From: an uncultured Bacillota bacterium
GTDB taxonomy: Bacteria > Bacillota_I > Bacilli_A > RF39 > UBA660
Reading direction: 5' to 3'
NCBI GenBank assembly: GCA_947246355.1
Contig: CAMXQX010000006.1
Location: 1 to 32,679, forward strand
DNA: 32,679 bases
Shown: one piece after another, positions 1,157 to 17,235 of the stretch
Layout of the letters: each line of letters starts with the position of its first letter
How positions within the stretch are numbered: the stretch's first letter is position 1
Made by a program: the position numbers and the translations under genes
Notes under the pieces: model-generated
Databases searched by the model: none
Seen by the model: the letters and a program-made list of their open reading frames with translations, nothing else
What the model was told of the DNA's origin: nothing

Positions 1157-1596
1157 TTTTTCCTACTTTCTAGTAAAATCGTAACAGGTCCATCATTGGT
1201 GAGAGATACTTGCATATCTTCCCCAAAAATACCTGTTTCTACTTTACAATCTTTTTTTAATTCTTGAAGAAAAGCATCATAGAGAGATGAAGCAAGAGCA
1301 CCTTTCATACTTCTTGTATAACTGGGGCGATTTCCATGACTTGTATCCGCATAAAGCGTAAACTGCGAAATACTTAAAATACTTCCCTTTACTTCTAGTA
1401 TACTCTTATTCATCACACCATTTTCATCATTAAATATTCTTAAATGAAGAATCTTATTCGCTAAAAAGAAAACATCATCCATCGTATCCTCTACTTCAAA
1501 ACCAACGAGTAAAACCATACCTTTCTCAATTTCTGCAACGACTTTCTTCCTAATTTCTACTTTGGCTTCTAAGCTCCTTTGTACTAAAACTCTCAT
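1153..1596 (-). CDS. dtd: D-aminoacyl-tRNA deacylase
   Basis: 147 aa; SQFTLYADTSHGNRPSYTRSM and NDGPVTILLES motifs. Confidence 0.95.
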   Translation of the reverse strand: MRVLVQRSLEAKVEIRKKVVAEIEKGMVLLVGFEVEDTMDDVFFLANKILHLRIFNDENGVMNKSILEVKGSILSISQFTLYADTSHGNRPSYTRSMKGALASSLYDAFLQELKKDCKVETGIFGEDMQVSLTNDGPVTILLESRKK

Positions 1597-3746
1597 TGCA
1601 CTGTCCTTTGGATATCCATAATCTCTGGAAGTGTTTTCACATCGTTTTCAAATTTCAAAGCTTTCTCCCTTCCTTGTACCAACACGGTTAAGGTAAGCAA
1701 ATTATAATCCATATTAGGAAGTAATTGCACATTTTGAACAGAGAGATTATTATTCGAAGCAATCTTTAAAATGGAGAGTAGAACATCATCTTTTTTTAAA
1801 GTATGAAGGAAAAATTCACAAGGGTATTTATTTTCAATTTCTGTATTCCAAGCAACGGCAATAATCCGTTCTTCTAAATCTTTTACATTAGGGCAAATGC
1901 TTCTATGCACTGTAATTCCATTTCCCTTGGTAATATAGCCAACGATATCCTCTCCAGGAAGTGGCTTACAACAGGATGCAACATTCACCTTAATTTCATC
2001 AATTCCACTTACCACAATGTCCGTTTTTACACTAGGTGTATCAACGGTTCCATTCTGTTTTTTCTTTAAAATACTTTCCTCTATAGGAATTTTTCCATTG
2101 GTTTGATAACTTAAAACAGCACTGGTTGTTATTTTATTGCTTCCAATAGCTATATAGAGTTGCTCTACGTTTTCTACTTTAAAATAGGTAAGGACTTCTT
2201 TTATATTTTCCTCTTTTAGAAAATCGATAATACTTATTTTTTTCCTTCTGAGTTCTTCTTTTAAAATTTCTTCTCCTTTTTTTAAGTAATCTTCTTGCGA
2301 TATTTTATTAAAAAACGCTTTAATCTTATTTCGTGCTTGGTTGGTTTTTACCATGTTTAACCATTCTCTACTAGGACCAATACTATTTTTATTGGTATTG
2401 ATTTTAACAATATCGTCCGTTTTTAATTCGTAGTTTAATGGAACAATCGTATCATTGACAATCGCACCTACCATTTTATCACCGATATCGCTATGAACTC
2501 GATAAGCAAAGTCAATAGGAGTTGAACCCATCGGAAGCTCAATGACATCACCATTGGGTGTAAACACATAAATATTTTCATTCAAAAAATCATTTTTAAC
2601 GGTACTTACAAATTCCTCATCGGTCATCTCCTCTTTTTGTAGTTCAATAATCGAACGATAAAATTGTAATTTTTGTTCCATTACATTTTTCATGAGTTTT
2701 CCTACATTGTTCGCATTGTTTTCTTTATACGCCCAATGAGAAGCAATACCACGTTCTGCAATTTCATCCATTTCATAGGTACGAATTTGGATTTCATAAA
2801 GTTGTTCATTTTCTCCAAAAACAGTGGTATGTAGAGACTGGTACATATTGGCTTTCGGCATGGCTATATAATCTTTAAACCGTTTGGGAACGGGTTTATA
2901 TTTTCCGTGAATTAGTCCAAGAGCGTGGTAGCACTCCTCTTTTGTATCGACAAAGACACGCAGAGCCAAAATATCATAAATATCACTCATTTTCTTGCCC
3001 TTATCCAATTTTTTATAAATGCTAGAAATACTTTTAGAGCGCCCTTTTATCTCATGCTTGACCCCTGCTTCTTTTAAAAGAAGAGAAACTTGATTCATCA
3101 TTTTTTTGACATCGCTATCTCGCTCTAATTTGGACTTATTTAATTGTTCAACGATAGAAAAATAAACATCTGGTTTCAAATATCGTAAACACAAATCCTC
3201 CATTTCTCCTTTTATCCTGCTCATACCAAGACGATTGGCAATGGGAATAAAGATTTCCTGTGTTTCTAACGCTTTTTCCTTTTGTTTTTTTAAAGGAAGG
3301 CCAAAGAGAGTTCGCATATTGTGCAAGCGAGATGCCAGTTTAATTAAAATCACACGTACATCATCGGATAACCCTACTAAAATTTTTCTTTGCACTTCTA
3401 CTTTTTCATTACTTGTTGGTGTAAAAGTCAATTGATTGATTTTATAAAGACCTGTAACAATAGAAGCAATGTCTTTTCCAAATTCTTGTTCAAACTGTGG
3501 ATTTTCTATTGCATTTACCTCATGAAGCAAAGCAGCACAAATGGTTTCCACATTTTGCTTACTATCTGCTAAAATCTTCGCCACTTCTAAAGGATGAACA
3601 ATAAAATCTTCCCCTGTTCGTCTTTTTTCCCCTGCATGATATTTTTTGGCATATTCATAAGCTTTTTCAATTAATTTTATATCTTCTTCCTTTGTATTAT
3701 ACGTCTTCACCATTTCGGTTAATGTTTCCAATGTACTCATTTCCAT
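1593..3746 (-). CDS. rel: RelA/SpoT-family (p)ppGpp synthetase; hydrolase domain appears degenerate
   Basis: 717 aa with synthetase motifs (RFKDYIAMPKANMYQSLHTT, EIQIRT), TGS domain, SCCKPLPGEDIVGY zinc-finger region and ACT-like C-terminus. HD-domain residues altered (see findings). Confidence 0.95.
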   Translation of the reverse strand: MEMSTLETLTEMVKTYNTKEEDIKLIEKAYEYAKKYHAGEKRRTGEDFIVHPLEVAKILADSKQNVETICAALLHEVNAIENPQFEQEFGKDIASIVTGLYKINQLTFTPTSNEKVEVQRKILVGLSDDVRVILIKLASRLHNMRTLFGLPLKKQKEKALETQEIFIPIANRLGMSRIKGEMEDLCLRYLKPDVYFSIVEQLNKSKLERDSDVKKMMNQVSLLLKEAGVKHEIKGRSKSISSIYKKLDKGKKMSDIYDILALRVFVDTKEECYHALGLIHGKYKPVPKRFKDYIAMPKANMYQSLHTTVFGENEQLYEIQIRTYEMDEIAERGIASHWAYKENNANNVGKLMKNVMEQKLQFYRSIIELQKEEMTDEEFVSTVKNDFLNENIYVFTPNGDVIELPMGSTPIDFAYRVHSDIGDKMVGAIVNDTIVPLNYELKTDDIVKINTNKNSIGPSREWLNMVKTNQARNKIKAFFNKISQEDYLKKGEEILKEELRRKKISIIDFLKEENIKEVLTYFKVENVEQLYIAIGSNKITTSAVLSYQTNGKIPIEESILKKKQNGTVDTPSVKTDIVVSGIDEIKVNVASCCKPLPGEDIVGYITKGNGITVHRSICPNVKDLEERIIAVAWNTEIENKYPCEFFLHTLKKDDVLLSILKIASNNNLSVQNVQLLPNMDYNLLTLTVLVQGREKALKFENDVKTLPEIMDIQRTVQ

Positions 3747-3753
3747 AATGCAC

Positions 3754-5985
3754 CTAGGAATTAATTCCTTTTACTTTTAATTCTTCTTTTTCATCTAAGG
3801 CATACCACTTTTTCTTTTTCGGTTTTCCTATATTCTTTTTTTCCATATGAAACCATAGATAGGTTGCTATAAATAAAGAAGAGTACGAACCAACAAGTAA
3901 ACCAATAAACATAGCAATATTAAAGTTTACAATTTCACTACTTCCAAAAAGAAGTAAAGAGGCAATCGGTAACAATGTCGTAAGAGAAGTAAAGATATTT
4001 CGAGAAATGGTATTCGTAATGCTTTGGTTGACAATATTTTCAAGTTGTTCTTTTGTTTTTACTTTTTCTTCTTTCATGTCTTTATTACTACGAATCGCAT
4101 CAAAAACAACAATGGTATCATTAATCGAATAACCCAAAATGGATAGAATAGCCGCAATAAAAATCGTGGAAACTTCAAGCTTGAAAATGCTAAAGACAAT
4201 TACGACGAATAGAGCATCGTGTAAAAGGGTTAAAATGCTGGCCAGTGCATAATGGAAAGTAAAACGAATGGAAATATAAATGACAATACCAAAAAGGGCA
4301 AGAAGAAGTGAAAAGATAGCATTTTTTACTAAATCCTGTTTTACACGATTGGATACCACCCCTACATCTACAGAGGCATCGTATTTTTCTTTGAAATAAT
4401 TTTGCGTTGTAGTAATCTCTGCTTCCTCTAATGTATTATCAAGAATAATGGTATAAGTATCTTCTCCTTCTTTGGTGAACGTTTCCAATTTATAATCCAT
4501 AGAGGCAATATCGTTTTCTATCTCACTATTTGTTATCTTTTTTGCTGTATTGAAAGTAATGGAGGTTCCCCCTTTAAAATCAATCCCTAAATTTAATCCT
4601 TTTATCGTAAGAAAAATAGAACCAATAAAAAGCAAAATAGCTGTCATAAATGCGAATTTAGATTTATAAAGTGTCAAGCGATTGAACTTCTCCTTTACTT
4701 GGATAGAGCCAATAAAGAAACTTACTTTTTCATTAAAGCGGTTGCTTAAAACAAATTTAGTTGTAATATATCTTGTAAATAAAACCATGACAAACATTGT
4801 AACTACAATACTAATCATTAACATCGTCGCAAAGCCTTTGATGCTGCTTTCCCCAAAAATAAATAAAATGATAGCCGCAATGAGTGTTGTTACATTGGCA
4901 TCAATGACAGTAAGTAATGAATTTTTATTTCCTATTCGGTAAGCTTCCTTAAGTGACTTTCCATTTCGAAGTTCATCTTTGATACGAGCAAAATTAATGA
5001 CATTCGCATCCACCGCCATCCCAATTCCTAAAATCATAGCTGCAATACCTGGAAGAGTTAATACACCCCCCATAAGCCAAAAGATTGCAAAACTTAAGAA
5101 AGTATATATTAATAGGCTAAGGGATGCTAAGAATCCTGCAAAGCGGTAAGTCAAAATCATAACCAAGATCACAAGAATAAGTCCAATCACACCTGCTGTA
5201 AAGGTTTTATTTAGAGATGATTCTCCAAAAGAAGCATCCACGGTCTTCGATGAAATCTCTTTTAATTTGGTGGGAAGACTCCCTGAATTGATATTGCTTA
5301 CAAGTGTTTTTACTTCCTCTGTTGTAAAATTTCCCTGAATGATAACATCTGAGGAAAACGCTTCTCCTACACGAGCAGCAGATAAACACCTACTTCCCTC
5401 ATTTCCACAAGAGGCACTTTCTTTAGCGTAAGAATCAACCCCCTCTTCAAAATCAATCCAAATCACAATGGTATTGTTACTTCTTTTGCTAATTTCCTTG
5501 GTTACCTCATAAAATTTTGTTTTGTTCTTGATTTGAAGCGATACAGCGGGTTTGCCTTTATCGTCGGTCCCTACTTTCGCACTCTTAATCACATCCGCTG
5601 TCATTAAAAGATTGTCCCTAGTGTCTCTAAATGTTAAAGATGCCACTTGACTTAAATTTTTTCTTGCTTCTTCAGGACTTTTGACACCAGCTAATTGTAC
5701 GCGAATACGATTATCCCCTTCTATTTGAATGACAGGTTCTGCGACTCCATATTCATCAATTCTTCTAGCAATCGTTTTATACGTACTATCTACCATGGAA
5801 GCATCCAGTTTTTCCTCTGTTAAACTTTCAACTTCATAAAGAATCTCAAAACCTCCTTGTAGGTCAAGTCCAAATTTTAAATTTTTAAAGAGAATGGGAG
5901 TCAAAAAGCCAACCACTCCAATTAAAATAATGAAAAGAAACCAATACTTTAGGGTACTTTCTTTTGTTTCTTGTTTTTTCTTCAT
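3754..5985 (-). CDS. secDF: Fused protein translocase subunit SecDF
   Basis: About 743 aa; LKFGLDLQGGFEILYEV (SecD) and GLNLGIDFKGGTSITF (SecF) motifs in one chain. The start at 5985 (MKKKQETKES) is preceded by GAGGAG; the ORF-track start at 6003 lies inside the upstream gene. Confidence 0.95.
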   Translation of the reverse strand: MKKKQETKESTLKYWFLFIILIGVVGFLTPILFKNLKFGLDLQGGFEILYEVESLTEEKLDASMVDSTYKTIARRIDEYGVAEPVIQIEGDNRIRVQLAGVKSPEEARKNLSQVASLTFRDTRDNLLMTADVIKSAKVGTDDKGKPAVSLQIKNKTKFYEVTKEISKRSNNTIVIWIDFEEGVDSYAKESASCGNEGSRCLSAARVGEAFSSDVIIQGNFTTEEVKTLVSNINSGSLPTKLKEISSKTVDASFGESSLNKTFTAGVIGLILVILVMILTYRFAGFLASLSLLIYTFLSFAIFWLMGGVLTLPGIAAMILGIGMAVDANVINFARIKDELRNGKSLKEAYRIGNKNSLLTVIDANVTTLIAAIILFIFGESSIKGFATMLMISIVVTMFVMVLFTRYITTKFVLSNRFNEKVSFFIGSIQVKEKFNRLTLYKSKFAFMTAILLFIGSIFLTIKGLNLGIDFKGGTSITFNTAKKITNSEIENDIASMDYKLETFTKEGEDTYTIILDNTLEEAEITTTQNYFKEKYDASVDVGVVSNRVKQDLVKNAIFSLLLALFGIVIYISIRFTFHYALASILTLLHDALFVVIVFSIFKLEVSTIFIAAILSILGYSINDTIVVFDAIRSNKDMKEEKVKTKEQLENIVNQSITNTISRNIFTSLTTLLPIASLLLFGSSEIVNFNIAMFIGLLVGSYSSLFIATYLWFHMEKKNIGKPKKKKWYALDEKEELKVKGINS

Positions 5986-5986
5986 G

Positions 5987-6268
5987 CTACATCTCCTCTT
6001 CATTGAAATAAATCGTTCTATTGCGCCTATTCAGCTTTTCTTTTAAATAGGCATCAATTTCTCTTTCTTCTGCGTTTAATACATCCGCAACCATTTCATA
6101 CAAAAGTAAGTTTTTAGCTCTTACCCATTTGACTTCTTTTAAGTAGTTCCATATATCTTCTTCTTTGATATAAGGATATCCATCTCGATGCATTTCTTCT
6201 TGTTTTGTATGTAAAGCTGGTTTAATACGACGATATAAATCCTCTACTGTTTCAAACTCCAAATCCAT
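5987..6268 (-). CDS. ComN-like post-transcriptional regulator family protein
   Basis: 93 aa; YPYIKEEDIWNYLKEVKWVRAKNLLLYEMVADVLNAE pattern and the secDF-comN-spoVB neighbourhood known from Bacillus. Confidence 0.7.
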   Translation of the reverse strand: MDLEFETVEDLYRRIKPALHTKQEEMHRDGYPYIKEEDIWNYLKEVKWVRAKNLLLYEMVADVLNAEEREIDAYLKEKLNRRNRTIYFNEEEM

Positions 6269-6360
6269 AAAAGCCTCCTCACTTTAATAAAAAAATATTT
6301 ATTTCATATCATTATTATATATGAAAAAAGTTTTTTTTAAAAGATTTCAAAGGTGATTAA

Positions 6361-7650
6361 ATGAAAAAAAGTAAATTTATAAGATCCACTCTTATTTTAA
6401 TGGTTGGGGGAATGATGACAAAACTCCTTGGAATGCTTATTCGTATCATCACATCCCGCCTTCTTGGAAAAACGGGTATGGGAATTTATAGTCTTTTGTC
6501 TCCAACATTCATGCTACTCATCACCTTCGCTCAACTTGGTTTTCCAGTAGCTATCTCAAAATTGGTCTCCGAAGATACTAAAAACAATAAAAAATTGGTT
6601 TTGGGTCTTATTCCAATTAGTCTTTTTTTAAACGCTTGTATTTTTCTTTTATTATGGATTTTAGCTCCTTTCCTTAGTACCTATCTTCTTCATGAGAAAA
6701 GATGTATATATGCCATTATTTGTATGGGATTCGTTCTTCCCTTTATTTCTATTTCATCGATTTTAAGAGGATATTTTTTTGGAAAGGAGCGTGTTATTCC
6801 ACACGTGATTTCCAATATATTGGAAGACGTAATTAAAATTGTCATCTTGCTTATTTTTCTACCCTTATTTTTAAAGAGGAGTATCGAAGCAGCGGTTGCT
6901 TTTGTTATATTTTCTAATCTTTTTTCAGAACTTTCCTCTATTTTTATCTTTTTAAGTTTACTTCCTAAAAAAAATATTCGCCTCTCTGATTTCATTCCTC
7001 GAAGGGAAAATATGAAGAGTGTTTTTTCCCTAAGTATTCCCTTAACAGGAAGTCGTATTATTGGCAATATTGGTTATTTTTTAGAACCTATTATTTTGAC
7101 CACGGTTTTAACTATTGTTGGCTATACCAATGGATACATTATTGATGAATATGGAATCTTAAGTGGGTTTGTTCTTCCTATTGTTCTTCTTCCTTCTTTT
7201 TTTACAGGGGCTTTATCACAGGCTTTAATTCCCGTGATTAGTAAAGCAACCGCCCATGGCGATAAAAAATATGCTCGCTTTAAAATAAAACAAGCCATTT
7301 TTCTATCCCTTATTATTGGTCTTTCTTTTACTGTCTTCCTAGAACTCTATCCTCATGTTTTACTAAATTTAATGTATCGAACTACAGAAGGAACTCTTTA
7401 TTTACGTGTGTTAGCGCCTTTTTGTCTTTTGCACTATATCCAAGCTCCCATTGCTAGTAGTCTCCAAGCAATGGGCAAAGCCAAAACCAGTATGAAAGCG
7501 ACTATCCTTGGAACAGTTACACGTATCACAGTTCTTTCCTTAGCTTCCTTTTTAAAGATTGGTCTTTGGCCGATTGTAATCGCAACCGTATCCAGTATGT
7601 GCATCACCACTCTATACGAAGCAAAAAAACTAAAAGAAAGTTTACTATAA
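6361..7650 (+). CDS. SpoVB/MurJ-like MATE-superfamily polysaccharide/lipid flippase
   Basis: 429 aa polytopic; N-terminal KSKFIRSTLILMVGGMMTKLLGMLIRIITSRLLGKTGMGIYSLLSPTFML is characteristic of SpoVB. Confidence 0.85.
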   Translation: MKKSKFIRSTLILMVGGMMTKLLGMLIRIITSRLLGKTGMGIYSLLSPTFMLLITFAQLGFPVAISKLVSEDTKNNKKLVLGLIPISLFLNACIFLLLWILAPFLSTYLLHEKRCIYAIICMGFVLPFISISSILRGYFFGKERVIPHVISNILEDVIKIVILLIFLPLFLKRSIEAAVAFVIFSNLFSELSSIFIFLSLLPKKNIRLSDFIPRRENMKSVFSLSIPLTGSRIIGNIGYFLEPIILTTVLTIVGYTNGYIIDEYGILSGFVLPIVLLPSFFTGALSQALIPVISKATAHGDKKYARFKIKQAIFLSLIIGLSFTVFLELYPHVLLNLMYRTTEGTLYLRVLAPFCLLHYIQAPIASSLQAMGKAKTSMKATILGTVTRITVLSLASFLKIGLWPIVIATVSSMCITTLYEAKKLKESLL

Positions 7651-7655
7651 AAAAA

Positions 7656-7676
7656 TTAGCTCCACTTTGGAACTAA
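7656..7676 (-). terminator. Terminator for the 7684-8388 gene
   Basis: Minus strand TTAGTTCC-AAAGT-GGAGCTAA followed by TTTTTTT; one G-U wobble. Confidence 0.65.
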
Positions 7677-7683
7677 GTCTTCT

Positions 7684-8388
7684 TTATCTTTTAATATAAA
7701 CCTTATTTTTATTGTTTAAATTATTTAATTGCCTTTGAATTTCTTCCTTTGTCATATACCCTTGGCTTGGAAAATAATCCCTCTCCTCTCCATAGCACAC
7801 TGAAAATTTAGTGGTAGGTTCTGGAGTATAGGTTACCGTAGATGTCTGATTTGCAGCATCAACAGTCCAATATTTTGTATATGTTTCATCCATAATTGTA
7901 GAAGAATAAGTCGAAATATCTGTCCAACCAATTATTTTTTCATCGACCCATTTAGAATCTATATAAGTTGCCGCATAAACATCAATACTCTTTTTATAAA
8001 TCTTAAACTGATTTTCTTCGTTTAAAATATCGACATACGCATCTGTTTGTGGCGTATAAGTATGTAAATATTTCGTTCGTTTGCTACTTAAAAAATCTTC
8101 TTTTGGCATTTGCAAAAATTCTATTATTTCATCAAAAGAATACGTGTCGTCCCAATGAAATTCCTCTTGTTTTTGACAGAAATAATACTTTGCTTCCCCG
8201 TTTGTTTCTACTTTAATTAACTTCTTATCCGATAAATCAACGAGATCTATATCTTCACATTCTATTCTATAATTTTCTTCTGTTTGCATCTTATCCTCGG
8301 CACTTACTTGCATCGATAAAGCACCACTTGTTAAAGCAAAGGTTGTCAACAACATGGCTTTTTTTAATGCTTTTTTATTGTTTTCCAT
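7684..8388 (-). CDS. Secreted protein of unknown function
   Basis: 234 aa from MENNKKALKKAM with signal peptide (MLLTTFALTSGALSMQVSAED). AAGGAGAG RBS precedes the start at 8388; the ORF-track start at 8442 falls in the promoter. Confidence 0.75.
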   Translation of the reverse strand: MENNKKALKKAMLLTTFALTSGALSMQVSAEDKMQTEENYRIECEDIDLVDLSDKKLIKVETNGEAKYYFCQKQEEFHWDDTYSFDEIIEFLQMPKEDFLSSKRTKYLHTYTPQTDAYVDILNEENQFKIYKKSIDVYAATYIDSKWVDEKIIGWTDISTYSSTIMDETYTKYWTVDAANQTSTVTYTPEPTTKFSVCYGEERDYFPSQGYMTKEEIQRQLNNLNNKNKVYIKR

Positions 8389-8413
8389 TCTAAACTCTCC
8401 TTTTTGTCCATAT

Positions 8414-8442
8414 AGTGTAACATAGTTTTGAGGAAAATGCAA
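8414..8442 (-). promoter_or_regulatory. Sigma-A-type promoter for the secreted protein gene
   Basis: Minus strand TTGCAT - 17 nt - TACACT, upstream of RBS and ATG. Confidence 0.5.
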
Positions 8443-8459
8443 ACGCTTTCTTCATTCCT

Positions 8460-9089
8460 TTAAAATAGAAAAAGAGGCAAAAGAACAGCCGTTGTATTGG
8501 CAGTCATATGAAATAATATCGGAATTCTTATACTTTTGTATTTTTCTCTCAGTAGCATCAAAATCGTGCCTAGGAAAAAGGCATAAATAATGGTAAGACC
8601 TGTATGAACAAAAGCAAATAACAGAGTTGTAAATAGCATCGCCCACTTGTGAGAACAAATTTTATCAAAACTTTCTAATATTTTACCTCTATACATGTAC
8701 TCTTCTAAAATTGGACCTAAAAGGCCTGTTTCAAGCACTAAATAAATATTGCAGTTAGAGAAAGTCGTATTCGTTATTTTATAAATAAGGATATTCATAA
8801 GACTAGAAAATAGAATTCCAAAGAGGATAAGAAATAAAATATCCTTCTTAGGAAAAGACTTTTTTTCTTCTTTTTCATAAAATAGAAATATACAAAAAAG
8901 AGTATAGAAAATAGATACAATATAAGATGTATTTTTAAATAAAGACGTTTCTAAAAGGGTATCCGTATTCATTTTAGTGATACCCTCTAAAAAAAGAGTT
9001 GCAAGAAGGATAACAGCCATATTTCCTATCCAAACAAAAGCCAACATCAAAATCATTTTCAATATTTCTCTCAACTTATTCACAATCAA
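8460..9089 (-). CDS. CPBP-family intramembrane metalloprotease
   Basis: 209 aa; EEYMYR (EExxxR), FAFVH (FxxxH) and HMTAN (HxxxN) motifs within TM segments. Confidence 0.88.
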   Translation of the reverse strand: MIVNKLREILKMILMLAFVWIGNMAVILLATLFLEGITKMNTDTLLETSLFKNTSYIVSIFYTLFCIFLFYEKEEKKSFPKKDILFLILFGILFSSLMNILIYKITNTTFSNCNIYLVLETGLLGPILEEYMYRGKILESFDKICSHKWAMLFTTLLFAFVHTGLTIIYAFFLGTILMLLREKYKSIRIPILFHMTANTTAVLLPLFLF

Positions 9090-9115
9090 ATTCTTCCCTT
9101 CCTATCCTAACAGCA

Positions 9116-9144
9116 ATTATAACATAATCCATTTGAGGCTACAA
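9116..9144 (-). promoter_or_regulatory. Promoter for the CPBP protease gene
   Basis: Minus strand TTGTAG - 17 nt - TATAAT with extended TGT before the -10. Confidence 0.6.
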
Positions 9145-9157
9145 TGCCTTATTTTCA

Positions 9158-9166
9158 TGCTATAAT
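9158..9166 (+). promoter_or_regulatory. Extended -10 promoter element for the UDG-like gene
   Basis: TGCTATAAT upstream of the RBS and ATG at 9184. Confidence 0.5.
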
Positions 9167-9183
9167 GAAAAGGGTGAAAAAGT

Positions 9184-9855
9184 ATGCAATTAAAAGATTT
9201 AGAAAAAAACTACGACAAATTGCAAAAGAAATATGGAGCTAAGGAATTAAACTCCATTTATAATGGTGGATGTACCAAAAATCCAGATATTTGTTTTGTG
9301 TTTATGAATCCAACAGGAAGAAATGTAGCCTCATTAAAATCATGGAAAGGAATCCGTTCTCCTTGGCTAGGAACTAAAAATATATGGGATTTATTTTTCC
9401 CTTTGCATCTTCTTGATAAAGATATTTATACGAATATCAAATCGATAAAAGGAAGTGAGTGGAGTGAAGAATTTTCTTTAGAAGTATATCAAAATATAGA
9501 AAAACATAACATTTTTATTACCAACCTCGGAAAATGTACACAAGTAGATGCTAGAGAATTACCTAATTCCGTTTATCTAGAATACTTAGACTTACTAGAA
9601 AAAGAAATTGCCATTATTCAACCAAAAGTAATTGTTCTTTTTGGAAACCAAGTCAGTTCCATTGTTTTAAATGAAAAAATTTCTGTTTCCAAAGTACGTA
9701 AGCAATGTTTCTTAAAAGAGATAAATGGTCAAATCTATAAATTTTATTCCGTTTACTATCCTGTTGGAAATGGACGATTTAATCTAGATAAGGCAATAGA
9801 TGACATCCAGTGGATTATAGATACAGAACTAAAAAAAGTAGAAACTTCATCATAG
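9184..9855 (+). CDS. Uracil-DNA glycosylase superfamily protein
   Basis: 223 aa; PDICFVFMNPTGRN near the N-terminus, NIFITNLGKCTQ (cf. TNxxKCRP), IIQPKVIVLFGNQ and a late YYPVGNGR segment. Confidence 0.75.
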   Translation: MQLKDLEKNYDKLQKKYGAKELNSIYNGGCTKNPDICFVFMNPTGRNVASLKSWKGIRSPWLGTKNIWDLFFPLHLLDKDIYTNIKSIKGSEWSEEFSLEVYQNIEKHNIFITNLGKCTQVDARELPNSVYLEYLDLLEKEIAIIQPKVIVLFGNQVSSIVLNEKISVSKVRKQCFLKEINGQIYKFYSVYYPVGNGRFNLDKAIDDIQWIIDTELKKVETSS

Positions 9856-9870
9856 CTTTTCTACTTTTTT
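9833..9870 (+). terminator. Terminator overlapping the end of the UDG-like gene
   Basis: AAAAAGTAGAAA ... TTTTCTACTTTTTT inverted repeat spanning the stop codon. Confidence 0.7.
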
Positions 9871-9931
9871 TATTACCAAAAAGCAAATGCATATTCTCCC
9901 ATTATTTGCTAAAAAAATATTAATACGCTTA

Positions 9932-10756
9932 TTATTTTAATCTTTCTTTACAAATTTTTGTGTTCTGTTTTTTAGAATGATATAGTCTCTTTTCTACATA
10001 AATATATAATTGTAATTTAATTTTTAACATAAAATTATATTTTTTACAAGCGTTTTCTATGGCTTCATGTAAATTTTCTTCCGCAACCATATTTAATAAA
10101 GCATATAATTGACTTAACAGTTCTTGCTGTTTCATTTGGATATAAATCTCATTGGCCATATGTAGGGTTGTCATTGTGCGTAGGTCTTGCTCATCCAACA
10201 GGTCACTTCCATATTTTCTAACTTTTTCTACACCTTCAATAGATAATATATTGATATCATTTATCTCTATATAATCGTCTAATTTTAAAAATAACCATAA
10301 ATGTTTTTCACTAAAATTCTTCCAATCAATTTGAGATAAACTACTTTCGAAATCATCATCCTTGTTTGTAATATTCATCTTAAGTAAGTGTTCTTCTTCC
10401 TTTTGCGTTTCCATTTCTACTCTACTACCACTATTCTGAAATACTTCCTTTATAAACCTTTGTGCGGCTTCTTGAAGCACATCAAATTGAAATGTTGGTT
10501 GTAACTCACTATATTTTTTTTGAAATGCCCGTAGCATAGTACCACATTTCCAATTTTGAGCAATATCTAAATAAAGTGGATCCATACCATTCATATTTTC
10601 AAAATCTTCTTTTGTATATTTTCCTTCCTCTAAAACTTTTTTTCCAATCTTTTTCATTTCTGTATAAACATTTTCTTTCAATTGTTGCAAAGCAGATTGA
10701 AACGCATCTCTTTGCATTTCCCCTTTTTCTATAATTTTTTCTATATCTGTATACAT
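9932..10756 (-). CDS. Uncharacterised protein, helical and charged
   Basis: 274 aa ORF with its own promoter (TTGACA - 16 nt - TGC-TATAAT, around 10788-10815); no family recognised. Confidence 0.65.
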   Translation of the reverse strand: MYTDIEKIIEKGEMQRDAFQSALQQLKENVYTEMKKIGKKVLEEGKYTKEDFENMNGMDPLYLDIAQNWKCGTMLRAFQKKYSELQPTFQFDVLQEAAQRFIKEVFQNSGSRVEMETQKEEEHLLKMNITNKDDDFESSLSQIDWKNFSEKHLWLFLKLDDYIEINDINILSIEGVEKVRKYGSDLLDEQDLRTMTTLHMANEIYIQMKQQELLSQLYALLNMVAEENLHEAIENACKKYNFMLKIKLQLYIYVEKRLYHSKKQNTKICKERLK

Positions 10757-10822
10757 ATTTCCATACTCCCCTTTCTTTTAAAAGGATATTATAGCATATT
10801 TCTCTTGCTTGTCAAATTACAA

Positions 10823-10846
10823 AAAAAGCGTAACAAAACGCTTTTT
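10823..10846 (-). terminator. Terminator for the DUF362 gene
   Basis: AAAAAGCGT-AACAAA-ACGCTTTTT inverted repeat overlapping the stop. Confidence 0.75.
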
Positions 10847-11726
10847 AATCGATAGAAATCAGTTCATATTCTCTTGTTCCAAATCCAAGGTCACTTGCTG
10901 CTTCAATGGTATGTATTCCATGTCTTGATTCAATTCTCTCTACGAAATGGTCTCTTCCTTCCTCTTTTGAGTTATAAACCAAATCAATACAAGCCTGGTC
11001 TATAGCAATAGGGTCAGTCGATGCTAGAATGCCAATATCTTTCATACAAGGATCTTCTGCAACTGCACAACAATCACAATCCACAGACAGATTACTCATG
11101 ATATTGATATAAACAATTTTATCCTTCAATAATTGTACGACAGAGGAAGCTGCATCTGCCATCGCTTCTAAAAATTGCATTTGGTCTACTTGAAACATTT
11201 CTTCAAAAGTACCATTTTCATTTCCAATACAATGAATATAAGACTTTCCATGAGAAGAGGCAACACCAATTGACAATTGCTTTAAAGCTCCACCATATCC
11301 GCCCATAGGATGCCCTTTAAAATGAGATAATACTAGCATTGAATCATAGTTATCTATATTTTTACCTATATAATTTTTTTGAATAACTTTCCCATTTGGA
11401 ATTTCTAATACTTTATCAGGCCCTTCTGCGTCCATTATATCAACCGAAAAATACTGACTCCATCCATGCTTTTCCATTAATTTCTCATGTTTTTCTGTTG
11501 TATTTCTCTCTCCTTCATAAGCTGTATTGCACTCTACTACGGTTCCCCCTACATATTCTATCATATCTTTAAAATACGCAGGATGTAAAAAGTTTTGATT
11601 CCCTTCTTCTCCTGAATGTACCTTTACAGCTACTTTTCCTTCCAATTTCTTTCCTACTTTGTCATAAATTTTCACTAAACTTCCACTTGATAAATTCTTT
11701 GTAAAGTAAACCTTCGCTTTTTCCAT
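10845..11726 (-). CDS. DUF362 domain-containing protein (putative Fe-S/redox protein)
   Basis: MEKAKVYFTKN start; VHSGEEGNQNFLHP, SHFKGHPMGGYGGALKQLSIG, DCDCCAVAEDPCMKDIGILASTDPIAIDQA. RBS GAAAAGGAGAAG precedes 11726. Confidence 0.85.
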   Translation of the reverse strand: MEKAKVYFTKNLSSGSLVKIYDKVGKKLEGKVAVKVHSGEEGNQNFLHPAYFKDMIEYVGGTVVECNTAYEGERNTTEKHEKLMEKHGWSQYFSVDIMDAEGPDKVLEIPNGKVIQKNYIGKNIDNYDSMLVLSHFKGHPMGGYGGALKQLSIGVASSHGKSYIHCIGNENGTFEEMFQVDQMQFLEAMADAASSVVQLLKDKIVYINIMSNLSVDCDCCAVAEDPCMKDIGILASTDPIAIDQACIDLVYNSKEEGRDHFVERIESRHGIHTIEAASDLGFGTREYELISID

Positions 11727-11828
11727 TTTCTCTTCTCCTTTTCTGATTTTATTATAGCATACATTTTTTTGCCCAAACATAGAGATATTAATAAGAAGGA
11801 TTGGTCTATAAAGGATATCTACTCCTTT

Positions 11829-13814
11829 TTAATCTAAATCCTCGCTTTTTTTAAGAAGTTCTTTTAAAACAAAATTATTTTTAAATTCTTCACTTTTGTA
11901 ATAGGCACAGGCATCTTCTTTCGCATGTTTTAAAATAGAAAAATCTTCTTTAAAATTGGCAAGTTTAAACACTTGGGTACCACTTTGTCTGCTTCCAAAC
12001 AAATCTCCACTTCCGCGAAGACGAAAATCTTCTTCACTAATTTTAAATCCATCGTTTGTTTTGGTAAGAACAGAAAGTCTTTCGGTTTCATAATTGCTAA
12101 TTAAGATGCAATAAGACTGTAAATCACTACGTCCTACCCGTCCTCTTAATTGATGAAGCGCAGAAAGTCCAAACCGATAACTGTCAAAAATAACCATCAT
12201 CGTCGCATTGGCTACATTGATGCCAACTTCAATCACCGTCGTACTAATTAGGATATCAATGCTTCCTTCTTGAAAAGCATTCATGACTTCTTCTTTTTCT
12301 TTGGCTTTCATCTTACCATGTAAAACGCCTATTTTATAATACTTTCCAAAAGCTCGATTCATTTTTTTCTCTAATGTATAAACATTCTCTAAATCGATTT
12401 TATCACTTTCTTCTACTAAAGGGGCAATCACATATATTTGATGGTTTTGCTTTAATTCTTCTAACATTCGTGTCAATACTTCTTTTAAATCCTCTTCTTT
12501 TTTTAAAAGAGTAATAATTTCTTTTCTACCACTGGGAGGAGATGCAATACTCGAAATATCCATATCACCATAAATGGTTAAAGCATAGGTTCTTGGAATC
12601 GGTGTGGCACTCATATAAAGTACATCAGGTGTAATGCCTTTGTTTTTTAAACTTCCTCTTTGGTTGACTCCGAATCGATGCTGCTCATCTGTAATCACAA
12701 GTCCTAAATTATTGTAAATGACATCATCTGTAAATAATGCATGGGTTCCAATGATCATATCTACTTCTTTATTGGCAATTTTTTCTAAAATTTCTCTTCG
12801 TTCTTTACTTTTCATCTTCCCCGTTAATAAGGCCACATGGACATCAAAAGAAGAAAGAAGATTCAAAACTGTATCATAGTGTTGGTGTGCTAAAATCTCA
12901 GTAGGAGCCATTAAACAACTTTGGTACCCACTTAAATAATTCATGTACATGCTAAGAATCGCAACGATGGTTTTCCCACTTCCTACATCTCCTTGCAAAA
13001 GACGATTCATTCTTTTTTCAGAAGATAAATCTTTATAAATCTCTTCTATACTTTTTCTTTGATCTACAGTAAGAGAAAAAGGCAAAGACTGGATGACTTC
13101 TTCGACTTTTGTAAAAGCAATACTTCTTTTTAACCCTATTTTCATCATTTTATTTTCTTTTAATTCTGTCATTTTCATCATAAAAAGGAAGAGTTCTTCA
13201 TATTTAGCCCGGCGAAGAGCCTGTTTTAATTTCTGTTGACTTGTTGGATGATGTATTTCTAAAATGCTTTCCTTTTTGGACAGTAAATGATACTTTTCGA
13301 CATATTCTTTAGGAATAAAATCAATAGGATAAACGTCTTTTTTCAGTGCTTGATCAATAAACTGTGCTATTTTCATAGAGGATATTCCATTCGTTGTATG
13401 GTAGACGGGTTCTATGCTTTCTTTTAAAATAGGTCCAAAGCGTATTTCGGACGCAACTATTGTTTTTACATGTTTATCTATTTTTCCAAAAATAGTAAGA
13501 CAAGAGCCTACTTTTATGGATTGTTTTAAATAAGAACGATTAAAAATAACTATATTTAAAATATGTGTTTCCGTTTGCAATGGAAAAGAAATTTTACTTA
13601 AGTTTTTATAAATGTAAAAAATTTTAGGCACACCCGCTACTACCCCATCGATAATAACAAATGCATCCCTTAATTCTTTTAAATTGCTCTTTTTGATCAA
13701 ATCATACCGAAAAGGATAATATTCAAGTAAATCTGCTTCATTTTCAATTCCTAATTTTTTAAGTAATAAAAGCGATTTTTCGCCAATTCCTTTCATTTCC
13801 CTTAAGTCTGTCAT
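11829..13814 (-). CDS. recG: ATP-dependent DNA helicase RecG
   Basis: 661 aa; LLQGDVGSGKTIVA, MAPTEILAHQHY, DEQHRFGVNQR, MSATPIPRT, LRGRVGRSDLQSYC, FRLRGSGDLFGSRQSG. Confidence 0.97.
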   Translation of the reverse strand: MTDLREMKGIGEKSLLLLKKLGIENEADLLEYYPFRYDLIKKSNLKELRDAFVIIDGVVAGVPKIFYIYKNLSKISFPLQTETHILNIVIFNRSYLKQSIKVGSCLTIFGKIDKHVKTIVASEIRFGPILKESIEPVYHTTNGISSMKIAQFIDQALKKDVYPIDFIPKEYVEKYHLLSKKESILEIHHPTSQQKLKQALRRAKYEELFLFMMKMTELKENKMMKIGLKRSIAFTKVEEVIQSLPFSLTVDQRKSIEEIYKDLSSEKRMNRLLQGDVGSGKTIVAILSMYMNYLSGYQSCLMAPTEILAHQHYDTVLNLLSSFDVHVALLTGKMKSKERREILEKIANKEVDMIIGTHALFTDDVIYNNLGLVITDEQHRFGVNQRGSLKNKGITPDVLYMSATPIPRTYALTIYGDMDISSIASPPSGRKEIITLLKKEEDLKEVLTRMLEELKQNHQIYVIAPLVEESDKIDLENVYTLEKKMNRAFGKYYKIGVLHGKMKAKEKEEVMNAFQEGSIDILISTTVIEVGINVANATMMVIFDSYRFGLSALHQLRGRVGRSDLQSYCILISNYETERLSVLTKTNDGFKISEEDFRLRGSGDLFGSRQSGTQVFKLANFKEDFSILKHAKEDACAYYKSEEFKNNFVLKELLKKSEDLD

Positions 13815-13856
13815 AGAGCACCTCTATTCCTATTATAGAAAACATTTGTTTGTCTG

Positions 13857-14327
13857 TCAACCGACTAATTTATTTTTTTCTTTGAAAAGGAATGGTTTTT
13901 TATAATGAATACAATCTACGTATTCTAATAACTGATCCATGTTTATATTCTTTTCTGCCTTTAGATAGTACTTATCCTTCCAAAAATAAATCTCATTTTT
14001 TTTTAATATATCCTTGGGAAGTACTAGAATATCTTCAATCTCATAAAGAAATTCTTCTTCAATAAGTTCAATTCGTAAATCAATTTCACCATCAAAATAA
14101 TCAAAATAGTCCAATCGATCGCCATCAATTTCTAAAATAAGTCCATAGAGAGTATCGCTGTAAGCCCTCACTTCATAAAATCCTTGTACTTCTATAGCAT
14201 AATTATATTTTAATTTTAAAAGAATATTTTTTAAATCCTTTTCTACCTCTTCCATAGTATTAAAGTCAATATGAATGTTTGGTAAATAAAGAATCATATC
14301 TTTTTTAGAGTTCATCTCAACTTTCAT
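13857..14327 (-). CDS. Uncharacterised acidic protein
   Basis: 156 aa ORF between recG and engB with good spacing; no family recognised. Confidence 0.6.
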   Translation of the reverse strand: MKVEMNSKKDMILYLPNIHIDFNTMEEVEKDLKNILLKLKYNYAIEVQGFYEVRAYSDTLYGLILEIDGDRLDYFDYFDGEIDLRIELIEEEFLYEIEDILVLPKDILKKNEIYFWKDKYYLKAEKNINMDQLLEYVDCIHYKKPFLFKEKNKLVG

Positions 14328-14356
14328 GAAATCACCTATTATTAGTGTATGAAAAA

Positions 14357-14383
14357 AGAATTATTTATCGCCTAAATAATTCT
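14357..14383 (-). terminator. Terminator overlapping the engB stop
   Basis: Minus strand AGAATTATTTA-ggcga-TAAATAATTCT followed by a T tract. Confidence 0.75.
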
Positions 14384-14953
14384 CTCTATTTTTTCTTGAA
14401 TCTCTGATTTTCCTGTCTTGGTTACATTGGAAAACACCACAAAGTCATCCCCTACTCCTAATTCTAAATCAGCCAATATAACATTTCTTTGCATTTGATG
14501 TTTTGTAATTCCTACTTTATCGGATTTGGTTGCAACAATCGTAACAGGAAGCTTGTAATATTTTAAAAAATTATACATCATGATATCATCTTCAGAAGGC
14601 TTATGGCGAAAATCAATTAACATAAACACTTGTTTTAAGTTATCTCTGCTAATTAAATAGTCCTCCATCATCAAGCCAAACTTTTTATGTTTTTCCTTGC
14701 TTAAATTGGCATATCCATATCCTGGTGCATCTACCAAATAAAAACGTTCATTGACCAAATAAAAGTTAATGGTTTGTGTCTTTCCTGGACTAGCGCTTGT
14801 TCGAGCATAATTCTTACGATTAATTAGTGTATTGATAAAACTACTTTTCCCAACATTGCTTCTTCCTACCAGTAAAAATTCTGGCAAATTGTCGGTTGGG
14901 TACTGACTACGTCTTACCGCACTCATTTTTAAATCTACTGAATTTATTTTCAT
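14372..14953 (-). CDS. engB: Ribosome biogenesis GTP-binding protein EngB/YsxC/YihA
   Basis: 193 aa; GRSNVGKSSFINTLINRKNYARTSASPGKTQTINFY, DAPGYGYA, ATKSDK. Confidence 0.97.
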   Translation of the reverse strand: MKINSVDLKMSAVRRSQYPTDNLPEFLLVGRSNVGKSSFINTLINRKNYARTSASPGKTQTINFYLVNERFYLVDAPGYGYANLSKEKHKKFGLMMEDYLISRDNLKQVFMLIDFRHKPSEDDIMMYNFLKYYKLPVTIVATKSDKVGITKHQMQRNVILADLELGVGDDFVVFSNVTKTGKSEIQEKIERII

Positions 14954-15011
14954 GCATACACCTCTTTTTTATGTACTTCATTATAACATACTTAAAATCG
15001 TTTGGCTAGTT

Positions 15012-15518
15012 TTATTTTGTTTTTGCCAAAATCTCTTTTTGCCTTTCTATTTCTTGATAAAAAAGTTCTATTCCATCCTGTACTGCCACTCCCCTTTGCT
15101 CTTCTAAATCTTTTAATTTTGTAAAATATACCTTATAAGGTATATTAGTATCTATTCTATAGATACTAACTCCAAAAAAAGAGGGATGGTGGTAAAAATC
15201 TTTTTCAAAGGTAGATTTCAGTCTTTCAAACGATTCTATCTGTTTTCTACTTAACTTCTCAGGTAAATAAAGAAAACCTGCATACTTGCCATCAATCTTT
15301 CCAGCATTGAGTAACAATGCTATATTTCTTTTGGCAAGTTCTAGAGCAAAACCTTCCACAGAAAAATTTGGAGGTAATTCCATTTGATTTTCATCAAAGA
15401 ATTCCTTTAGCAAATCAATATGTTGCTTTACGTCACCATGCTTTGTCTTTGTAACTATTTCCCCATCAAGGTCACTCTCTTTTCCATAAAAAAACCACAA
15501 TAAATCAGAAATATTCAT
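15012..15518 (-). CDS. Uncharacterised protein, third gene of the cassette
   Basis: 168 aa ORF, codirectional with and about 20 nt from the preceding gene; FFDENQMELPPNF and YLPEKLSRKQIESFERLKSTFEKDFYHHPSFFGVSIY segments. Confidence 0.7.
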   Translation of the reverse strand: MNISDLLWFFYGKESDLDGEIVTKTKHGDVKQHIDLLKEFFDENQMELPPNFSVEGFALELAKRNIALLLNAGKIDGKYAGFLYLPEKLSRKQIESFERLKSTFEKDFYHHPSFFGVSIYRIDTNIPYKVYFTKLKDLEEQRGVAVQDGIELFYQEIERQKEILAKTK

Positions 15519-15538
15519 AAAATATACCTCTCTTTGTA

Positions 15539-15796
15539 TTAACCTTCTATCTCGAACTCAAATTTTGTCTTTATATATACATTTGGTGCGATTAATTTTT
15601 CATAAATGGATGGAATTTCTTTCTTTAAAAAATCCAAATCCTCCAAAATAGAATAAGCTGTATCTTTTTTTATATGAAAAAAGCAATCATCTTCGATAAG
15701 TATTTCTTTAATCAATTGGTATTTTTCCAAATCATCTATACTACAAAGGCTAATTTTTTTATCGGTTATTTTTCTTAATTGTTCTAATAATTCCAT
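15539..15796 (-). CDS. Uncharacterised small acidic protein, second gene of the cassette
   Basis: 85 aa ORF overlapping the upstream gene by 13 nt. Confidence 0.65.
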   Translation of the reverse strand: MELLEQLRKITDKKISLCSIDDLEKYQLIKEILIEDDCFFHIKKDTAYSILEDLDFLKKEIPSIYEKLIAPNVYIKTKFEFEIEG

Positions 15797-17235
15797 CCTT
15801 TTTTTACCTCCAAATTTTTTTCAAACTTCTCATTGGGTATAGAAAGAATGCCTCTTTTTTTCATATTACGTAAATCAAGCCCACTTAAAAGAACACCTTC
15901 TTTTGCCTCTTCAAATACATAATAGGTATCTCCATTCTCACAATATTTGGATAAATCAACAACTACGATAGAATCGTATTTTTCTCCCTTTTTTTTATAA
16001 CAGATCGTATAGGGAATTTCCTTTTGCAAACCATCTGCTATATTGGCATTCAACATGGAAGAAATATAATTGGTATAATGAGGAGAAGTTAAAATAGGGT
16101 TTATACCTAATTTAGATATAGAATCCATCATTTCCTTGATATTTTTTACTTCCTGTGGAATCATTTGTTTTAAACTTCTATATCTAACTTCCAGCCTTCT
16201 TCTTTCCTCTTTTAGAACTCTTTGGTACTTTTCATATTTTTTATCTGCATTTTCAATGGCAGAATGAATATCATTTTTAGGGTTTAGCGCCTCAAATCCA
16301 ACTGTTTTTAAGCCTATTTTAACCCGTGTCCTATCATCAACTGTACTGATCTCATCGCCATTTTCCTTCTTTGTTGCATCTGCTTTAATAACAACGCCTC
16401 TGTAGGAAAACAGAGCATATCTCTTACTTCCAAAGGAAACAACAGCGTTTATGCCAACCTTTTTAAGTAAGCTTACATAAATAGCTGCAAAATCTTTCTT
16501 ATTTTCTAGATTATCGTCTTTTTCATCTTTAAGGATAGGAAGAGAATCATCACTTTCTATTCTTTTACACAGCTCTATATATATACTTCTCGCTATAACA
16601 AAGTCATTTTCCTCAAGATTCACTCTTTTCAAAACTTCTCTTTCTAAGTTTTTATCCAGTTCTATTGTACAGAAGCTTCCATTCAAAATTTCATCATGTG
16701 GTGTTTCAAAAATGAAGTGACTTTTAATATCTTGAATACGCTCCATCTTGTGTTTAGGCAGTGCTATATGATTTTCTTCATAAAACCGTTCTAGGCTTAA
16801 AAAAGAGTCAATATAGTTTGTAAGAGAAATAGGAGCAAAATCCTCTTTATGTTCTTCAAAATTTAAAAATTTTTCAAAAGTAGACTCATCTGATAGAATT
16901 GCCATCAATCTACAAATAGGAATTTCATTTTTAGGCGTATTTTGGTACTCCTCATATGAATAATGAGGATAAATTTCCTGCAACTGCTTTTTATAATAAG
17001 AGTTCAGATAATTTATTTTCTCAAAGTATTTTTTTGGCAAAGTTGGATCGTTTTTTATAAAATGTTGCATTACTTTATTTAAAGCTATAATATAATCCAA
17101 TTTTTGAATATTCTTAAATAGACTTTTTTCATTTTCAAAATTCATAACAAATTTTCTAAAAACAGTATCGTCTTTGAAAATTAATTCCAAAGTTGTTAAG
17201 GGTATAACCTTAAAATCTTTTTGTAATTCATCCAT
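15784..17235 (-). CDS. Uncharacterised protein with N-terminal tandem repeat and a degenerate transglutaminase-like domain
   Basis: 483 aa; KKDFAAIYVSLLKKVGINAVVSFGS...YALFSYRGVVIKADAT resembles the transglutaminase-like fold without its Cys and His; two related ~66-aa N-terminal segments. Confidence 0.7.
   Translation of the reverse strand: MDELQKDFKVIPLTTLELIFKDDTVFRKFVMNFENEKSLFKNIQKLDYIIALNKVMQHFIKNDPTLPKKYFEKINYLNSYYKKQLQEIYPHYSYEEYQNTPKNEIPICRLMAILSDESTFEKFLNFEEHKEDFAPISLTNYIDSFLSLERFYEENHIALPKHKMERIQDIKSHFIFETPHDEILNGSFCTIELDKNLEREVLKRVNLEENDFVIARSIYIELCKRIESDDSLPILKDEKDDNLENKKDFAAIYVSLLKKVGINAVVSFGSKRYALFSYRGVVIKADATKKENGDEISTVDDRTRVKIGLKTVGFEALNPKNDIHSAIENADKKYEKYQRVLKEERRRLEVRYRSLKQMIPQEVKNIKEMMDSISKLGINPILTSPHYTNYISSMLNANIADGLQKEIPYTICYKKKGEKYDSIVVVDLSKYCENGDTYYVFEEAKEGVLLSGLDLRNMKKRGILSIPNEKFEKNLEVKKGWNY

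Follow-up and report, generated by a model that had tools for sequence, protein, structure and literature searches.

Toxins of the transglutaminase type have been described as a class (PMC3482391). Inactive transglutaminase domains also occur in polymorphic toxins, where the order is a signal peptide, the domain, and then RHS repeats, and these domains have been proposed to act as surface anchors (PMC3482391). A second group of described systems comprises the LXG effector-immunity operons of T7SSb (TelC/TelD; PMC9600955); in the telD operon, immunity-type genes follow the effector, and a DUF4176 gene comes last (PMC9600955). Here we describe a locus of three genes (A, B, and C) in a window of 32,679 nucleotides, the whole stretch of DNA analyzed, from an uncultured Bacillota bacterium. 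Protein A shares with the inactive toxin domains (PMC3482391) a likely transglutaminase fold with lost triad residues and a relationship to conflict-type proteins, but differs in being cytoplasmic and accompanied by a partner, B. Some relatives of A resemble the T7SSb operons (PMC9600955) in having large ORFs with a C-terminal A domain, B directly downstream, and DUF4176, WXG100, and EssC-like genes nearby. The comparison with the LXG operons covers these features. The pair in the window, in contrast, stands by itself, in a genome without the markers tested.

Organization of the locus

The initial annotation described three codirectional genes with a 13-nt overlap, a gap of about 20 nt, and one promoter. 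The coordinates (Table 1) bear this out, as does a 25-nt block around TGGTATAAT that the sister species (G001) shares without a change, even though protein A there is only 55% identical. No transmembrane-level hydropathy was found in the A, B, or C proteins (maximum KD19 1.42), in agreement with the earlier claim that they contain no TM segment.

Table 1. Positions of the features in the window and of the related loci mentioned in the text
Feature	Sequence	Position	Strand	Remarks
Gene A	window	15784–17235	-	483 aa; N-terminal half helical, containing two ~100-residue segments related to each other; transglutaminase-like core (~195–310) degenerate; C-terminal part alpha/beta
Gene B	window	15539–15796	-	85 aa; first 13 nt shared with the end of A
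Gene C	window	15012–15518	-	168 aa; 20-nt gap after B; small alpha/beta orphan with H33, N71, Y79, L85, and Q93 invariant; family adjoins A-B in this genus only
Extended -10 promoter TGGTATAAT	window	17275–17267	-	read directly; presumed A-B-C transcript
Gene C, sister species	L002 (G001)	3215–3727
5100-aa ORF	L161 (G203)	1251–16553
2963-aa ORF	L160 (G290)	3262–12153
Protein right after A-B	L067	1–1377	-
Protein right after A-B	L131 (G319)	5215–6612
Variant operon	L147	5056–10545
Variant operon	L151	6002–9765
Variant operon	L154
Variant operon	L156	4760–8556
Variant operon	L158	5124–10282

The trio also lies upstream of engB in G001, the other genome of the genus. The order of A, B, C, engB, and the next gene is the same in both genomes, and the neighborhood upstream of the trio differs. 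Substitutions in A and B between the two species fall mostly at third positions, and dN/dS, at a dS close to saturation, is approximately 0.22 for A and 0.15 for B. The third-position excess and the low dN/dS indicate that A and B are real genes under purifying selection. Within this genus, B is more constrained than A.

Gene C and the limits of the unit

The three proteins had been proposed to form one unit, and a single three-component machine would fit the gene order and promoter that the two genomes of the genus have in common. The distribution of C, however, stands against such a machine, which we consider very improbable. Six other genomes have a relative of C (~160–200 aa) by itself next to unrelated housekeeping genes; we take these neighbors, from their translated sequences, to be murG, tgt, queA, or murD. 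C does not recur beside A-B elsewhere, and one divergent C is located one gene away from A-B in G130. In the sister species, C is broken by a frame change and some residues are missing, possibly owing to an assembly error. The linked pair A-B is thus what remains of the proposed three-protein unit; C is not part of the core module and is probably a later add-on to it.

The AlphaFold model of C, which is confident (pLDDT 84), gave no PDB match with E < 0.001. Among its viral matches, the second-ranked had by far the highest probability (0.82, E 0.02); it is an uncharacterized 117-aa phage protein, on which we did not rely. Comparison of the C family with PHROGs yielded nothing credible, and no C was found in phages. 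Weak matches of C to Hpt-domain proteins were rejected as chance.

Gene A probably encodes a divergent transglutaminase-like protein

Of 291 genomes from the taxonomic family of the bacterium, 77 contained A when searched with a 17-member profile. Across the class, A is almost restricted to that family in the profile search; the sole match outside it, in G350, is itself a Transglut_core protein. The relatives in named records come from uncultured Erysipelotrichaceae, Bacilli, and Firmicutes MAGs. Both A and B are almost limited to one family of uncultured Bacilli.

Most members of the A family carry C-x-x-[WF]..H..A-D-[AS], in the order of the transglutaminase triad, and the Cys and His of this Cys-His-Asp triad are kept in 40 of the 48 distinct members. 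The C..H..D order and spacing are those of the transglutaminase-like superfamily (PF01841). Pfam Transglut_core (PF01841) matched three of the 17 profile members weakly and under the curated cut-off (best E 8e-4, 20.0 bits against a cut-off of 23), and did not match window A. In an hhalign comparison with genuine Transglut_core proteins, the catalytic regions lined up in register with an E of 0.009, at a probability of only 4.5%. In a Foldseek search, the model of the degenerate window A gave no PDB match with E < 0.001, and weak USP (papain-like) fragments were obtained. The hhalign probability places the homology to transglutaminases at the edge of detection; these weak but consistent signals lead us to infer that A is a divergent protein of the transglutaminase (papain-like) fold. 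The helical N-terminal half and the dedicated partner B distinguish A from the rest of the superfamily. The initial annotation noted a distinctive architecture for A. A does have relatives: it would be a member of the transglutaminase-like superfamily whose active site is missing in the window.

Homology within the A family and within the B family, and the loss of the triad, are, at the sequence level, well established. Window A and its congener have both lost the Cys and the His, and in both the segment preceding the Cys is shortened; in window A, the Cys is replaced by Lys and Asp286 is kept. The eight triad-less members among the 48 are these two, one in G267, and five in FtsK-linked loci. 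Five of the eight could be placed in a tree, for which the most parsimonious solution has three state changes; the well supported branches force one. Independent loss of the active site on more than one occasion is likely, though not proven. The members with an intact triad, which form the majority, would be thiol enzymes (peptidase, transglutaminase, or deamidase) with a putative protein target.

Window A, B, and C had no credible match in Pfam or NCBIfam, and neither they nor three relatives of A matched the PADLOC defense families. A was not found in phage or plasmid records, and no relatives of A or B were found in viral contigs. These results, with the absence of C from phages, led us to reject a mobile-element or phage origin. 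PDB sequence searches with the profiles of A, B, and C returned chance matches only.

It might be supposed that A works as a normal thiol enzyme of the cytoplasm, or is an inactive paralogue of one, with B as its regulatory subunit, that there is no conflict role, and that the use by T7SS is a side branch. Most A genes are indeed stand-alone genes in housekeeping surroundings, with neither a mobile nor a secretion context, and the searches of phages, plasmids, viral contigs, and the defense library would be in line with this. We nevertheless regard it as unlikely, since a housekeeping gene would not usually be so patchily distributed within the family, diverge so rapidly, or have lost its active site in several members.

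Gene B is a probable dedicated partner of A

The B proteins share a conserved motif, K-Y-x-L-I..L-x-x-D-x-C-F-F..A-x-x-I-L. An A gene or A-like ORF was located directly upstream of B in 29 of 30 fetched loci: a profile-detected A in 27 and a degenerate A-like ORF in two, with neither in the remaining one. Among 41 neighborhoods, A (in 35 loci) and B (in 33) are alone in recurring widely. In nine of the 41, an ABC-transporter cluster was present, which we attribute to the general abundance of such clusters. The distances of A and B are correlated in a mirror-tree comparison (r = 0.67; none of 5000 permutations was as high), a correlation that could also arise from shared descent alone. B is retained with all eight triad-less members of A. 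The linkage points to B as a dedicated small partner of A and to A-B as a genuine two-gene unit. The initial annotation had foreseen an undescribed cytoplasmic unit with conserved gene linkage, and the linkage across related genomes supports such a unit in A-B; that the two act as a multi-protein system is a reading drawn from the linkage.

B was absent from about 10 loci in which A has an intact triad and downstream sequence is available. B is thus not strictly required by an intact A and is not simply an obligatory antidote.

The next most recurrent neighbors, found in five loci, are a protein of ~120 aa and an FtsK-type ATPase. These loci (L147, L151, L154, L156, and L158; Table 1) contain a variant operon with a degenerate A, B, the ~120-aa protein, the FtsK-type ATPase (~255 aa), and further uncharacterized genes, in which we recognized no described system.

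Relatives associated with T7SS and the role of the pair

The A domain forms the C-terminal end of three large proteins, L131 (718 aa), L159 (893 aa), and L160 (2963 aa); its catalytic residues are intact there, and the gene for B begins 5–35 nt further on. Genes for DUF4176 lie near the effector-type relatives in G019, G319, and G203, and WXG100 genes in G290 and G019, so that one or other marker is present near these relatives, whereas none was found near the locus or elsewhere in the window genome. Long FtsK_SpoIIIE (EssC-like) proteins were also found near them; the one in G290 has an FHA domain, like EssC itself. YukC was detected in none of the nine genomes tested, which include the effector-like carriers, and YukC, DUF4176, and WXG100 are all absent from the two genomes of the window genus, G000 and G001. 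A cognate small gene directly downstream is typical of T7SS effector-immunity pairs, and B overlaps or follows A in this manner. The effector architecture, like the A-B linkage and the selection on both genes, is clear from the sequences.

The position of B right behind the C-terminal A domains, the ADP-ribosyltransferase-type toxin domains in the giant relatives, and the existence of transglutaminase toxins as a described class (PMC3482391) raise the possibility that A-B is an effector/toxin-immunity or toxin-antitoxin pair. B would then neutralize an active A that harms the cell or a neighbor, and the window copy would be an orphan remnant kept for the protection given by B. A strict toxin-antitoxin pairing is made less likely by the intact A genes that have no B. 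Moreover, B stays beside every A that has no active site, stand-alone A has no export signal, and window A is under purifying selection; the constraint on the dead A speaks against B as an antidote to catalysis alone. We give this explanation a minor but real share of probability.

We favor, with moderate confidence, the explanation that window A-B is a binding complex that has been domesticated and is non-catalytic, and that it descends from an effector-partner module or has an ancestor in common with one. A-B would be a two-protein module in which a helical half of A precedes a transglutaminase (papain-like) fold and B is the cognate small protein encoded in an overlapping frame. The A domain is also found at the end of T7SS effector-like proteins, with B behind it in the position of an immunity gene. 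In the genus of the window, the triad is gone, both genes are still under purifying selection, and none of the three T7SS markers is present in the genome; taken together, these make a domesticated binding complex the most likely state of the pair, which would act by binding alone, A and B presumably binding each other. Their physical association, the direction of evolution, and the biological role are all presumed here. More broadly, A-B might represent an intracellular system for conflict or regulation, so far without a name, in one gut Bacilli family, its roles shifting repeatedly among secreted warhead, stand-alone enzyme, and inactive sensor or decoy, and with an FtsK-type ATPase operon joined to it in one branch; we consider this distinctly unlikely.

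Two unannotated families, A and B, can thereby be given a probable superfamily and a partnership open to test. They offer a case in which a bacterial enzyme domain has lost its active site while the partner gene was kept, and they link gut Bacilli genes of uncharacterized role to T7SS effectors.

Several relatives have further features of their own. In the 5100-aa ORF of G203, which adjoins DUF4176, an A domain and a HELGH motif occur together with an ADP-ribosyltransferase exoenzyme domain. The 2963-aa ORF of G290 has a Tox-ART-HYD1 match, helical repeats like those of the N-terminal half of A, and a C-terminal A domain with B downstream, and adjoins WXG100 genes and an EssC-like gene. In L067 and L131, the protein encoded right after A-B contains a HELGHTFD metallopeptidase motif and shows a weak Peptidase_M60 match.
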